Shown here: one piece after another, positions 9,064 through 19,354 of the stretch
How the letters are laid out: every line of letters starts with the position of its first letter
Numbering within the stretch: the stretch's first letter is position 1
Virus record (IMG/VR): IMGVR_UViG_3300026263_000014
Coordinates: 1-24,893 of that record
DNA from: a virus
Length of the DNA: 24,893 nt
Direction: 5' to 3' (one strand)
Program-made: the position numbers and the translations under genes
Notes under the pieces: generated by a model
Told to the model about the DNA's origin: nothing
The model's database searches: none
The model's input: the letters and a program-made list of their open reading frames with translations, nothing else

Positions 9064-9645
9064 TTATGCGTATGAAATCCATCCTGTTACTATATATTTA
9101 TCTTCTTTAGGTGCAGGTATTCCGTGGTGTACGTGAGTCCAGTCTGCTGGCCAGATCATAGTCAGTCCTTTCTTAGGTTCTAACTCTAGATCTTGGTGTA
9201 CAAAGTTAGTACCACCACCCTCTTCAATGTCATTAAGATAGGTCATCCAGACTAGATGTCTGAAGGAACTTGTCTTATTAGATCCTACACGTTCAGTGTG
9301 AGGTTGAGAGAAACAAGCACCAGGAATATAATGCTGTATATTAAATGGTTCAAGTACCTCTAAGTCTGCCATCGAAGCCCAAGGATACTGTTCGATGTAT
9401 AGAGATATTCCACCTTGAACTGCATCAAGATATTTGACAATACGTGGATCCTTTATCCAAGATGGTACTGCCATATCCATTGATTGCTTGATAACCTTAT
9501 TCACCCCTTGTGATGTTTCACCAGGAGTTTTCTCTAGGTAGTCACAGGTCTCGTAAAAATCAAGTACACCGTCACAAATATCTGCATCTATGGTCCCTCC
9601 TGCTATAAAGGATTGAACCACTCTAGTAGGTGTTTCTTCAGTCAT
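9064..9645 (-). CDS. 2-oxoglutarate/Fe(II)-dependent oxygenase, prolyl-4-hydroxylase type (193 aa)
   Basis: The C-terminal half shows the double-stranded beta-helix pattern of P4H-type oxygenases. An iron-binding H116-x-E118 in QPHTE is followed by LVWMTYLND and EEGGGTNF (residues 131-148). The strand PKKGLTMIWPADWTHVHHG carries the distal iron ligand, probably H173, and the final DKYIVTGWIS has K183 in the place of the co-substrate-binding Lys/Arg. Such enzymes couple oxidation of 2-oxoglutarate to hydroxylation of a substrate; the substrate here is unknown. The proximal ligand pair is H-x-E instead of the commoner H-x-D. The gene sits between a small membrane protein and gp5, inside the tail block, so modification of a virion protein is conceivable. 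P4H-like genes are common in cyanophage genomes. Confidence 0.85.
   Translation of the reverse strand: MTEETPTRVVQSFIAGGTIDADICDGVLDFYETCDYLEKTPGETSQGVNKVIKQSMDMAVPSWIKDPRIVKYLDAVQGGISLYIEQYPWASMADLEVLEPFNIQHYIPGACFSQPHTERVGSNKTSSFRHLVWMTYLNDIEEGGGTNFVHQDLELEPKKGLTMIWPADWTHVHHGIPAPKEDKYIVTGWISYA
9095..9102 (-). promoter_or_regulatory. Possible late promoter upstream of gp5 (GATAAATA)
   Basis: The minus strand has GATAAATA, one mismatch from TATAAATA, 32 bases upstream of the gp5 ATG and inside the 3' end of the oxygenase gene. The spacing to the start codon is close to that of the exact motif before the 441-residue gene. Because it lies in coding sequence and other one-mismatch copies occur by chance elsewhere, this is a moderate call. 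Confidence 0.35.
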
Positions 9646-13449: not shown

Positions 13450-15693
13450 TTAAGTTAAACCCACCTTAGCTGGTTTTATGATGTTGTGAACAGCTACACC
13501 TTCACCCGTCTTGATAACCTCTTTAATCATAGGTTGAATAACAAAGGTCTCAGTTGTGCCAGGTCCAGCGAATTGTCCAGAAGCGTCTTGTATAGATCTA
13601 TCCTTCAATTCACTATTTATTCCTCCACCTTGTGCTCCTTCTGAAGGAGTAATTTTTGCTGAAGGTTCTGCTACACCTGTGAATGGTGACTCTTTACCAT
13701 ACTTACTTAAAGGATTGATCCTACTTAGAGGATTATCTTTTGGTCTACCAACATCATTAGGATTAGTTGATGTTTCCCAATGCAAATGAGGTCCAGTAGA
13801 TTGACCAGTGTTACCAAGTAAACCTAATACAGCTCCAGGAGAGAATGTATCACCTGCCTTGAACTTGGACATCTCCTTCATATGAGCGAAGAATTGTCCC
13901 ATACCATCACTACTTGTCCAAGCAATATAGTTACCAAATCCCTTATCAAATCCTACCTGTTGTACTGTACCACCAAGGAATGCTTTAAGTTCTTCTCCAA
14001 CTGCACCAGCAATATCAACACCCATATGCATACCAGGTGACAACTTCAAGGCTCTCTCCTTCATTGCCTCCGAAGTAACAACGTGTCCTCTATTACCTTC
14101 ACCACCTGTACCAGACTCAGCAGCAGCCAACTCTTCTGCTTGCCTCTCTTTGTCTAGTTCTTTCTCACGTTCCCACTTCTCCTTAGCCTTAACTACACGT
14201 TTCTCACGTTCGATCAATTCATCAGCAAGATCTTGGATATGCTCTTCTTCGAATTGGATTCTCTCACCAATAGTATATCTCCAAGACATATTCTTACCAT
14301 CAGGATCACCATCAAACTTCTTATCACGCATAATTATAAGTTTACCTAACTTCTTCGCAGCATCTTTCTGTGCTCTCTTATGTTTCTCAACTTCCCTCTC
14401 TCTATCTCTAAATTCTTGACCTGCTTTCTGAACATCAGATGTCCACACTCCTGCTACGTCAATTCTAGAACCTAGATCCTCAGCACCTTCAACGAAATCT
14501 GCTATAGCTCTAGCACCAGTCTTGATAATCCATATCAACCCTGTAAATAGTGGTTCAAATCTTTCACTAAGGAAGTCACCTATCGCTTTAACTGCTGGTC
14601 CCATCAATGGACCTAAGAACTCAGCAATACCTTTTAATATTGGTGACAACTCCTCAAATAGATCCATTATTGGACCTACTACTGGATCAATAAATGCTTT
14701 AAACGCAGGCCAAAAAACATCCACAAAATACTCTTTAATAGGTCCAAAGATAGGTGTCATTGCATCACCTAAGAATGCACCAATCTTATCTCCTATAAAT
14801 CCACCTACTAAACTACCAACCAAAGGTGCAAATGGACCTAAGATAGGTGTTAAAAATGCTGTTAGTGCCATACTACCAACAGTAGCACCAATACCACCAC
14901 CTACAGCATTCTGTACTGTCTCACCTGCTGCTAATCTACTAGTTGTTGATACAACACCAGCAGTTAGTGACATTGCCATTGGGTTGGTGGCAAAAGCTTT
15001 TGCACCACTCAATCCTTTACTAGCTAACTTCTTAGTACCTTGAGATAAGACTTGACCAAGTTTCTTAATGCCAGGTCCAAGGAACTTACTTAATTTTTGA
15101 AAGTCTCCAAGTAATTTCCAAGGTTTGAGTATCCTATCTGCTACAAATAATGCTGCTAAACCACCTAATATCTTCAGACCACCCATTATAGGTGACTTCT
15201 CACCAAATGCTTCTAATAGCCAACCAACACCTGTAGAGAATACCTTCCAGAATGTCCCTAACCATTTACCTATAACATTAAGTGTGTTACCTAAAAATTC
15301 TTTATTCTTAGGATCAGACATAAAGTCAAGAGTAAACCATATAGCTGCCTTCTCTAATAACCATACAAATGGTGATAATAACTTCTCTATCCAAGTACCT
15401 GCTTTCTTATCAGAGTTACCAGTCTCTTTCTCTGCTTGCTTCTTAACTTGTGGTGCTATCCTCTTCTCAATCTTACCTTCCCTAGCCTTATCCTTGGATA
15501 ATGTTCTACCTCTCCGTGCATCCTTTACCGTGTCCACCTTATCTTGGTACATATCAACGATAAGATTGCCAATGTCAGACACGACAAAACCTAGACGATT
15601 CATAGAAGTCGTCATTGCGGCTACAGGATCCGTCCGAATGTCTCCTTTAACGTTCGCTGGTAGAAAATTCCTTATCTTTAATTGTCCTGCCAT
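13450..15693 (-). CDS. Tape-measure-like tail protein with C-terminal M23 peptidase domain (747 aa)
   Basis: Residues 1-100 are charged and helical. About 100-400 is a chain of hydrophobic helices and a glycine-zipper region (GATVGSMALTAFLTPILG, VGSLVGGFIGDKIGAFLGDA), a pattern common in tape-measure proteins. Residues about 420-540 form a highly charged coiled coil (ERIQFEEEHIQDLADELIER and after). From about 550 to 640 there is an M23/LytM metallopeptidase domain: H556-x-x-x-D560 in HMGVD, H604 in FAHM, and H636-x-H638 in GPHLHWE, with the usual GNTGQSTG turn. These residues bind zinc and cut peptidoglycan cross-bridges. The domain would help the tail tube pass the host wall. The gene starts directly on the gp51 stop (TAAATG) and shares a short segment with the next gene, suggesting an old duplication. 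Confidence 0.85.
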   Translation of the reverse strand: MAGQLKIRNFLPANVKGDIRTDPVAAMTTSMNRLGFVVSDIGNLIVDMYQDKVDTVKDARRGRTLSKDKAREGKIEKRIAPQVKKQAEKETGNSDKKAGTWIEKLLSPFVWLLEKAAIWFTLDFMSDPKNKEFLGNTLNVIGKWLGTFWKVFSTGVGWLLEAFGEKSPIMGGLKILGGLAALFVADRILKPWKLLGDFQKLSKFLGPGIKKLGQVLSQGTKKLASKGLSGAKAFATNPMAMSLTAGVVSTTSRLAAGETVQNAVGGGIGATVGSMALTAFLTPILGPFAPLVGSLVGGFIGDKIGAFLGDAMTPIFGPIKEYFVDVFWPAFKAFIDPVVGPIMDLFEELSPILKGIAEFLGPLMGPAVKAIGDFLSERFEPLFTGLIWIIKTGARAIADFVEGAEDLGSRIDVAGVWTSDVQKAGQEFRDREREVEKHKRAQKDAAKKLGKLIIMRDKKFDGDPDGKNMSWRYTIGERIQFEEEHIQDLADELIEREKRVVKAKEKWEREKELDKERQAEELAAAESGTGGEGNRGHVVTSEAMKERALKLSPGMHMGVDIAGAVGEELKAFLGGTVQQVGFDKGFGNYIAWTSSDGMGQFFAHMKEMSKFKAGDTFSPGAVLGLLGNTGQSTGPHLHWETSTNPNDVGRPKDNPLSRINPLSKYGKESPFTGVAEPSAKITPSEGAQGGGINSELKDRSIQDASGQFAGPGTTETFVIQPMIKEVIKTGEGVAVHNIIKPAKVGLT

Positions 15694-15864
15694 TTAAAGT
15701 GATGGATTACTTGTCGTAGCTTTCTGTCTCTGCTCCTCCTCTCGAAGATAGCGTAAAAGCATATTGACATACACATCCCTTTCCCACGGAATCATATCTT
15801 CCAACTCAGTAATGCTCCACTTGTGGTGTTGCATCATTGCGAAGTTAACCTCATAGAGGTTCAT
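15694..15864 (-). CDS. gp51: Baseplate hub assembly protein gp51-like (56 aa)
   Basis: A 56-residue protein from an ATG at 15864: MNLYEVNFAMMQHHKWSITE, then LEDMIPWERDVYVNMLLRYL and a charged tail. The 'NLYE-NF--MQHHKWS-TELEDM-PWERD-Y' pattern is that of the small gp51 of T4-like cyanophages, the counterpart of the T4 hub assembly catalyst. The location between gp26 and the tape-measure-like genes matches T4, where genes 26 and 51 are neighbours. No Shine-Dalgarno sequence precedes the ATG, and a six-pair hairpin begins right after it. The frame is open upstream into gp26 through a slippery heptamer, so gp51 may be made mainly as a gp26-gp51 frameshift fusion, as with tail assembly chaperones of other phages. 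The stop is followed directly by the next ATG. Confidence 0.8.
   Translation of the reverse strand: MNLYEVNFAMMQHHKWSITELEDMIPWERDVYVNMLLRYLREEEQRQKATTSNPSL
15847..15861 (-). repeat. Six-pair hairpin immediately after the gp51 ATG
   Basis: Minus-strand AACCTC-TAT-GAGGTT is a perfect stem of six pairs with a three-base loop, starting at the base after the gp51 start codon. It could hinder independent initiation at that ATG. It lies 29 bases after the slip site, too far for a classic frameshift-stimulating stem. Confidence 0.35.
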
Positions 15865-15884
15865 CAAAGAGTCGTGGGCTAGGG

Positions 15885-16589
15885 CTACGCGAAAAAAGAG
15901 GCGAGACCCTCAAGCATAACGGTACTAGTAACTTCAGTCTTGGGATTAAATACTTCAATCTCTTTCTGAAGCTTAGGCATAGTTTCAAAGAACTTTTGAA
16001 CGTCCTGAAACTGTCCTGAGTTCATACCTTCAAAGAAAGCAACTAATTCTGCCTTCTTATAGTCCTTGGCTTCGTGCAGTTCATCACCATCAGCGATAGT
16101 ATCAGTACAATCTGCTGCTAGTTTAAATACGTCATCTATACCAGGATTATCTGTCAAATTATTCTTAACGAACACATCCAGTGAAGGATACTTCATCGTT
16201 AGAGTAATTGTTTCATCAAGTTTAATAATATTAGTGTGTTCTTTTGGAATAATTACTTCAACTTCATCCAAGTTAACTTCAGCATCAACTTGGGTTGTAT
16301 CATCATCAGGGCAAGTGACTTTAAATTCACTTACTTCTCCAACAGACTTACCACGTATTCTCAAGAAGAGATATTCAATTTCAAAAGTTGCTAAATCATT
16401 AACATTCTTGATACTAGTACAAGCTTTAATGATATCCTTAACAGCTTTGATCATCTCCTTCTGATTTTGCGTCTCCATTGCCATATAGAGAAGTTTTTCT
16501 TCTCTCACTAGAAATGGACGATAGGTAACTTTCGTTCCTCTCGGCAACACGCATTCATAATCTGGAATGCTCAGCTTGGGTAAAGGCAT
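15885..16589 (-). CDS. gp26: Baseplate hub subunit gp26 (234 aa)
   Basis: The N-terminus MPLPKLSIPDYECVLPRGTK and the block RPFLVREEKLLYMAMETQNQ (near residues 24-43) match gp26 of T4-like phages. So does the following ATFEIEYLFLRIRGKSVGE segment (about 67-85). The rest has a beta-rich part with FKVTCPDDDTTQ and a helical C-terminus ending GLASFFA. In T4, gp26 is a hub component or assembly factor with gp51. The stop codon (15887-15885) lies two codons after a T TTT TTC heptamer, and the -1 frame continues into gp51. The fold and neighbourhood resemble the tail assembly chaperones encoded just upstream of tape-measure genes in many phages. A CTAAATA motif lies 30 bases upstream of the ATG. 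Confidence 0.85.
   Translation of the reverse strand: MPLPKLSIPDYECVLPRGTKVTYRPFLVREEKLLYMAMETQNQKEMIKAVKDIIKACTSIKNVNDLATFEIEYLFLRIRGKSVGEVSEFKVTCPDDDTTQVDAEVNLDEVEVIIPKEHTNIIKLDETITLTMKYPSLDVFVKNNLTDNPGIDDVFKLAADCTDTIADGDELHEAKDYKKAELVAFFEGMNSGQFQDVQKFFETMPKLQKEIEVFNPKTEVTSTVMLEGLASFFA
15891..15897 (-). other. Candidate -1 ribosomal frameshift site (T TTT TTC)
   Basis: In the gp26 frame the last codons read TCT TTT TTC GCG TAG. The heptamer T TTT TTC fits the X-XXY-YYZ rule for -1 slippage. After slippage the frame reads CGC GTA GCC and runs without a stop through RVALAHDSL into the gp51 ATG and on to the gp51 stop. The fusion would have about 298 residues (233 + 9 + 56). Confidence 0.5.
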
Positions 16590-18247: not shown

Positions 18248-19354
18248 ATGGTTAGAATCAACTTAAATGATATTTGGTCTAAGTTCGGACTAGGAAAAAA
18301 TCCCAGTGACTTCGGCGATACAAGATCACCTCTGGTATACCCAAGAGAGCTTCCTGCTCAAGTGCCAACAAGTCGTGATGGAATTAGACCAGAAGACGAG
18401 GCAGAAACCAAATATTTAGATTATTTAAGAATACAGGTTTATAAAACACAAGGTGCCAATGGTGCTAACCCATATACTTGGGTTGGCGGTGGTGGCGGGT
18501 TTCAAGAACCTTTCAAAGGATTAAATCAAAGTGCGTTAGCTAAGACTATTTATCTTTACCTCCCTAGCGGGTTAAAAGAGGAGTATGGAGCTAACTATAA
18601 TCAAGCTACTTTAGGTGCTGCTGGTGTAGGTGCAGCAAAAGCAGGTGCTGCTGCATTGAGTGGAGAAAATATTGATGCTGCCAATTTAGCAGCAAAAACT
18701 GCTGGTACTGCAAAACCAGAATTCCTTATGAATACTGCTGCTTCAGCACTCGGTGCTGTTAATAGTCAAGCAGGTACTGGTGGAAGTCTAGATACTAATG
18801 ATCTACTAGCAGTAACAACTAAGAAGGTATTCAACCCATACCAAGAAACAACATTTAAAGGTGTGAACTATAGAAGTCACCCCTTTAACTTTAAAATGGC
18901 ACCTCGTAATGCTAAAGAAGCATTAGAGTGTTATAGAATTATCTCAACGTTAAGACAGGCAATGCTTCCTTCTGCTAGTAATGGAGCTGATGCCTTTGGT
19001 GACATAAACAACACAGCTCAGAATCTATTAAATAGTAAGTCTGGGAGTCACGGTGGAGCAAGATTCCTAAACATACCTGATATCTTTAAGTTATCACTTG
19101 TAAGGGTTGAAACTAATGATATTGGTGGTGCAAATTTCACTGCTAATAACTCACCAAGTAGACTCGCACAAATTGTAAGATATCCAACTAAGTGCGTACT
19201 AGCAAGTCTGAGTGTCGATGTGTCACCAGATGGACAGTACAATTCTTTGAAGAGTGTAATGGATGATCAATGGGATCACGGTCCTGCTGCTATGACACTT
19301 GCACTTAATTTCCAAGAAACACAATTCATTACAAGGGAGATGGTAAGAGGCTAA
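18248..19354 (+). CDS. gp48: Baseplate tail-tube cap gp48 (368 aa)
   Basis: The N-terminus MVRINLNDIWSKFGLGKNPS leads to SPLVYPRELP and a DYLRIQVYKTQG segment near residue 60. Then come TIYLYLPSGLKEEYGANYNQ (about 95-115) and an Ala/Gly-rich stretch. After VFNPYQETTFKGVNYRSHPF the block FKMAPRNAKEALECYRIIST (about 215-235) carries the usual 'P-R-(S/N)-x-x-E' helix found in tube-cap proteins. gp48 joins the baseplate to the tube started by gp54. AGG six bases before the ATG is a good ribosome site. The gene ends in a TAATG overlap with gp53. Confidence 0.85.
   Translation: MVRINLNDIWSKFGLGKNPSDFGDTRSPLVYPRELPAQVPTSRDGIRPEDEAETKYLDYLRIQVYKTQGANGANPYTWVGGGGGFQEPFKGLNQSALAKTIYLYLPSGLKEEYGANYNQATLGAAGVGAAKAGAAALSGENIDAANLAAKTAGTAKPEFLMNTAASALGAVNSQAGTGGSLDTNDLLAVTTKKVFNPYQETTFKGVNYRSHPFNFKMAPRNAKEALECYRIISTLRQAMLPSASNGADAFGDINNTAQNLLNSKSGSHGGARFLNIPDIFKLSLVRVETNDIGGANFTANNSPSRLAQIVRYPTKCVLASLSVDVSPDGQYNSLKSVMDDQWDHGPAAMTLALNFQETQFITREMVRG

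Follow-up and report, generated by a model that had tools for sequence, protein, structure and literature searches.

In the window, a viral contig of 24,893 bases whose T4-like tail genes lie on the minus strand, genes 26 and 51 very probably form one expression unit from which a pair of tail assembly chaperones would be produced by a programmed -1 frameshift. Most ribosomes would terminate at the gp26 stop and release a short protein of 234 aa. A fraction of them would pause at the slippery heptamer T_TTT_TTC, helped by the upstream Shine-Dalgarno-like element GAGGG and, in many relatives, also by a downstream hairpin. The two tRNA-Phe would then slip back by one base, and continued reading in the -1 frame would lead to a gp26-gp51 fusion of 298 aa. 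If the two proteins behave like lambda G/GT and P2 E/E', coating of the tape-measure protein would fall to the short form and recruitment of tail tube subunits to the long one.

The conserved programmed -1 frameshift is real, as judged from sequence. This reading is carried by the heptamer, its phase, the open frame, the coding conservation of the -1 peptide, the many relatives without an alternative start and the match in gene copy number with T4 and RB43; the slippage itself, its efficiency and the chaperone role are inferred. The frameshift from gp26 to gp51 had been proposed in the initial annotation and is supported by our results. Three findings that could speak against it were looked for and did not appear: no homologue examined carries a stop in the -1 frame between the heptamer and gp51, only Vibrio phage BX-1 and Pseudomonas phage Cygsa01 among these homologues are without the T-run, and the relatives share no ribosome-binding site ahead of the gp51 ATG, the position of which is itself unconserved.

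The zero-frame product gp26 (15885..16589, minus strand, 234 aa) belongs to PF12322 (E 5.6e-65) and phrog_150. Its 3' end reads GAG GGT CTC GCC TCT TTT TTC GCG TAG, with the stop TAG at 15885..15887 (minus); re-reading the sequence thus agrees with the gp26 end TCT TTT TTC GCG TAG reported before, in which T TTT TTC fits the slippery rule. The heptamer itself occupies 15891..15897 (minus) in the canonical phase X_XXY_YYZ. From there the -1 extension, the C-terminal part of the putative long form, runs over 15694..15897 (minus) with 67 codons from the slip site and a stop, and contains the gp51 of conventional annotation (phrog_634). It reads FFRVALAHDSL-MNLYEVNFAMMQHHKWSITELEDMIPWERDVYVNMLLRYLREEEQRQKATTSNPSL and ends at the TAA at 15696..15694, confirming that no -1 frame stop interrupts the stretch between the heptamer and 15694, across the gp26 stop and through gp51.

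The ATG of the next gene (13450..15693, minus, 747 aa) directly abuts this stop at 15693. The encoded protein is tape-measure-like, its matches to tape-measure PHROGs coming mainly via an M23-peptidase-like stretch; in this putative tape-measure protein the M23-type stretch covers approximately residues 535-690. Two tape-measure genes had been suggested to follow gp51. This agrees only in part: the first is tape-measure-like, mainly through the M23 stretch, while the second mostly matches PHROGs labelled endolysin or unknown. As in pairs of the lambda G/GT type, two consecutive ORFs thus stand directly upstream of a tape-measure-like gene; the second is open in the -1 frame starting at the slip site, and its protein sequence is conserved. 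In Caulobacter phage Cr30, the annotated tape measure is found two genes further on. Since a megablast search of the window junction against phages gave no match, the window represents a diverged lineage.

A comparison of many gp26-gp51 junctions, suggested earlier as a check, was carried out on two sets. The first comprised 96 junctions from 15 named phages, 80 gp26-related viral contigs and the window. All but one of them, that of Vibrio phage BX-1, have T_TTT_TT(C/T) in phase (95 junctions, 92 with C and 3 with T), and the -1 frame is open in 95/95 loci. The other Phe-Phe pairs of these genes served as an internal control, and only 2 of 100 are spelt TTT-TTC. After clustering below 80% nucleotide identity (n=72), 69 clusters have T_TTT_TTC and 3 have T_TTT_TTT, compared to 2/76 for the control Phe-Phe pairs. 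The second, more distant set was collected by single-protein scans with Pseudomonas pf16, Aeromonas PX29, Rhizobium IC12, Caulobacter Cr30 and BX-1 as queries; it overlaps slightly with the first, as query phages were re-found and a few phages occur in both. Here the in-phase heptamer was present in 81 of 82 readable junctions. The window has one further TTTTTTC, at 18294-18300; like the first it is a minus-strand sequence, and it is antisense to a plus-strand gene.

Named carriers of the heptamer are Kyanoviridae, PX29 (one Straboviridae record), Pseudomonas pf16, Caulobacter Cr30, Stenotrophomonas Yut2, Ochrobactrum ORM_20, Rhizobium IC12 and Desulfovibrio 7757. Aeromonas phage PX29 (L011) has the single-gene frameshift arrangement, and T4 and RB43 of the same family Straboviridae have two separate genes. 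No heptamer is found near the gp26 stop of Vibrio phage BX-1 (L012, L193; GTT TTT CGC TAATG) or in Pseudomonas phage Cygsa01 (L101:1900-1925; ATT TTC ACC TAATG). In these two lineages with overlapping stop and start, another slip site may be used, or coupling may replace frameshifting.

Evidence on how gp51 is made comes from the -1 frame itself. It is open for 58-71 codons in all 95 loci, whereas the other two frames are open in 0/95. Just past the slip site, the three codon positions carry 0.89/1.11/0.46 bits of information (72 clusters), a pattern typical of a coding frame. The consensus FFR(I/V)(A/S)LxHxxLExYY starts at the heptamer itself, before any possible start codon. The first ATG of the -1 peptide ranges from residue 4 to 35 among the relatives, and 13 loci have no ATG, GTG or TTG before residue 14. 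The second set includes 28 loci (7 clusters) whose gp26 stop comes only 8 codons after the heptamer; in these, no start is possible before residue 21-34. Reinitiation is therefore excluded there, and the predicted -1 peptide of these loci cannot be made by reinitiation or from an independent start. In L126, L141, L153, L156, L164, L168, L169 and their relatives, where the stop has this position, a stretch of about 9 codons would be used in two reading frames, each of which apparently encodes protein.

These observations bear on a rival view in which gp51 would be a small protein in its own right, with translation either beginning at its own ATG or reinitiating once the gp26 stop has been reached. 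Most phage records do annotate gp51 as a separate gene, often labelled 'baseplate hub assembly catalyst', the ATG likely to be annotated as the start of gp51 in the window (15862..15864, minus) lies 20 nt past the gp26 stop, and TGATG or TAATG overlaps occur in Cr30, Yut2, BX-1 and Cygsa01. However, the start position is not conserved, the 13 loci mentioned above have no early start at all, and the stretch upstream of every start is conserved as protein in the -1 frame. In the 28 loci, the gp26 stop falls inside the conserved -1 peptide. The start is also without a Shine-Dalgarno sequence, as noted previously for the window, where none precedes the ATG and the duplex energy is 0, and the in-phase heptamer would be left unexplained. 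We consider an independent gp51 very improbable.

Elements that could stimulate the frameshift were searched for on both sides of the heptamer. Upstream, the Shine-Dalgarno-like GAGGG (15907..15911, minus) ends 9 nt before the heptamer; this element was absent from the initial annotation. In relatives, GAGGG or GAAGG is formed by the codons of a conserved Glu-Gly pair. The element pairs with the 16S tail at a mean energy of -6.9 kcal/mol, compared to -5.15 kcal/mol in synonymous shuffles, the z-score of this comparison being inflated by relatedness. In addition, of 67 clusters that have Glu at this site, 51 use GAG, compared to 32% elsewhere.

Downstream, about half of the relatives have a hairpin. 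Folding exceeds that of shuffles preserving the -1 frame with a mean z of -2.2, compared to -0.4 in a control stretch, and 54% of loci fall below -2, where the shuffle z-scores count related sequences as independent. One clade exhibits an 11-bp stem 5 nt past the heptamer, in which one pair alternates between U-A, A-U and G-C. This strong hairpin is seen in L005, L029, L057, L066, L089, L091 and relatives at heptamer +12..+42; it is missing from neighbouring clades, which have other stems. The window's nearer relatives show a stem at +27..+33/+44..+50, where counting starts at the heptamer's first T; both partners vary in 5 of its 7 pairs, but because of the long spacer its role is uncertain. 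No significant structure near the slip site was detected in the window (z -0.7) or in its nearest relative L017 (z +2.0). The earlier caveat that a strong stimulatory structure is lacking accordingly stands for the window and falls for the family, many members of which have a downstream hairpin.

A six-pair hairpin, AACCTC-TAT-GAGGTT (15847..15861, minus), is specific to the window sequence. Its distance from the heptamer is 29 nt, and its first base directly follows the gp51 ATG (15861..15847), exactly as had been described. As a conserved stimulator it was rejected, being unconserved in relatives, and it is probably not the stimulator.

Escherichia coli dnaX has a Shine-Dalgarno-like element approximately 10 nt upstream and a hairpin approximately 5 nt downstream of its heptamer A_AAA_AAG. 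The upstream element of the window matches that of dnaX in direction and position, whereas a downstream hairpin occurs only in some relatives of the window. Further, the -1 product is the shorter one in dnaX (A_AAA_AAG) and would be the longer one in the window.

In principle, the same fusion could arise by transcriptional slippage on the T-run instead of ribosomal slippage, as the site contains six or seven T in a row and either mechanism would give the same product. Polymerase slippage usually takes place on runs of about nine or more. A run that nearly always ends after six T with a C (69/72 clusters) is short for it, and the Shine-Dalgarno-like element together with the clade-specific, covarying hairpins are marks of ribosomal frameshifting. 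Transcriptional slippage is thus very improbable compared to slippage of the ribosome.

The comparison with T4 and RB43 is in accordance with the frameshift. Each of the 19 records with adjacent gp26 and gp51 has one PF12322 gene, and T4 and RB43 have two. Seventeen of these 19 also have the heptamer, the exceptions being BX-1 and Cygsa01. T4 gp26 is of the same PF12322 family as that of the window and corresponds to the short form without the heptamer, its Phe-Phe being spelt TTC TTT. T4 gp51 joins a PF12322 domain and a phrog_634 domain in a single frame, with a phrog_150 match over nearly the whole length; this C-terminal domain is what the -1 frame adds in the window, and the window fusion as well as T4 gp51 match both phrog_150 and phrog_634. 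RB43 likewise has a short PF12322 gene and a second one fused in frame to a gp51-type domain. The genes for the short and long forms are divergent in T4 and tandem in RB43. With one PF12322 gene in the frameshift phages and two in T4 and RB43, two genes therefore stand where other phages frameshift: the two forms are paralogous genes in T4 and RB43, whereas in the window one gene would give both by frameshifting.

That the Phe-Phe pair and the T-run are kept solely for the gp26 C-terminus (GLxxFF), without any frameshift, is hardly credible: the two Phe are invariant in gp26 and T4 gp26 also keeps GLKEFF, but T4, with its separate gp51 gene, spells them TTC TTT without a heptamer, and the others show no variation at the synonymous sites of the junction (the last base of the codon before the pair, then TTT and TTC), while those of Phe-Phe elsewhere are not fixed.

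Recognition of the T4-like tail assembly chaperones as such dates from 2022. As represented in PMC10885494 and PMC12846349, the assignment of gp26/gp51 to this role goes back to Vladimirov, Gautam and Davidson (2022, Virology 566:9-15). The two-gene alternative to the frameshift in T4-like phages is credited to the same work in PMC10885494, and poly-T signals in the TAC-N genes of T4-like phages in PMC12846349. Priority for the cyanophage frameshift is presumed to lie there as well, at least in outline. Tentatively, and without leaning towards this scenario, frameshifting could be ancestral in the chaperone family and have been split into two genes in T4 and RB43; the hairpin would have been re-invented in several registers, and the window lineage would rely on the heptamer and the Shine-Dalgarno-like element alone.

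The frameshift chaperones G/GT of lambda and E/E+E' of P2 were reportedly described by Xu, Hendrix and Duda in 2004. Like the window, they combine a short ORF, a slippery site near its end, a -1 ORF and a tape measure gene immediately downstream; unlike the window, they use other heptamers, and their C-terminal parts show no detectable sequence similarity to that of the window. In a profile comparison with hhalign, each target being a single sequence, the gp51 domain showed no similarity to P2 E' or lambda T, and no Pfam or NCBIfam model for this domain was found. The single-sequence model of gp51 was of low confidence (pLDDT 66.5) and was set aside. The gp26 model (pLDDT 86.5) finds its best match among all PDB chains, a weak one, in the HK97 tail assembly chaperone 2ob9 (E 0.5, prob 0.84, 63 columns); gp26 has no sequence match in the PDB. 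The analogy to G/GT drawn initially agrees with the short PF12322 genes and the in-frame PF12322-gp51 fusions of T4 and RB43. By this analogy, there is a strong case that gp26/gp51 would work like G/GT, whereas homology to G/GT is only suggested. Gene position, the logic of two forms and the published work on T4 point towards a chaperone role of gp26/gp51.

A further related arrangement is the TAC locus of Vandenendeviridae and Andersonviridae, in which GTTTTT is conserved (PMC12846349). It shares with the window that TAC-N ends in a T-rich site for -1 slippage and that the -1 frame is open without exception, and differs in its slip site, GTTTTT in place of T_TTT_TTC, and in belonging to other virus families (PMC12846349). 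The GTT TTT of Vibrio phage BX-1 resembles this GTTTTT.

In most of the cyanophage and other T4-like records fetched, gp51 is listed as a free-standing gene with varying starts or is missed altogether. Treating it as the C-terminal part of a frameshift fusion would correct the annotation of many cyanophage genomes. It would also place gp26/gp51 of cyanophage-type phages and, by homology, those of T4 among the tail assembly chaperones. The heptamer with hairpin, the heptamer without hairpin and the separate genes provide a natural series for testing how the ratio of the chaperone forms is set. In Synechococcus phage S-WAM1 (L001, KU686210.1), the annotated gp26 lacks the first 114 nt of the conserved frame, and no feature is given for the gp51 part. 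Among the tail genes of the window, a 193-aa protein encoded at 9064-9645 (minus) resembles 2OG-Fe(II) oxygenases, as judged by eye.
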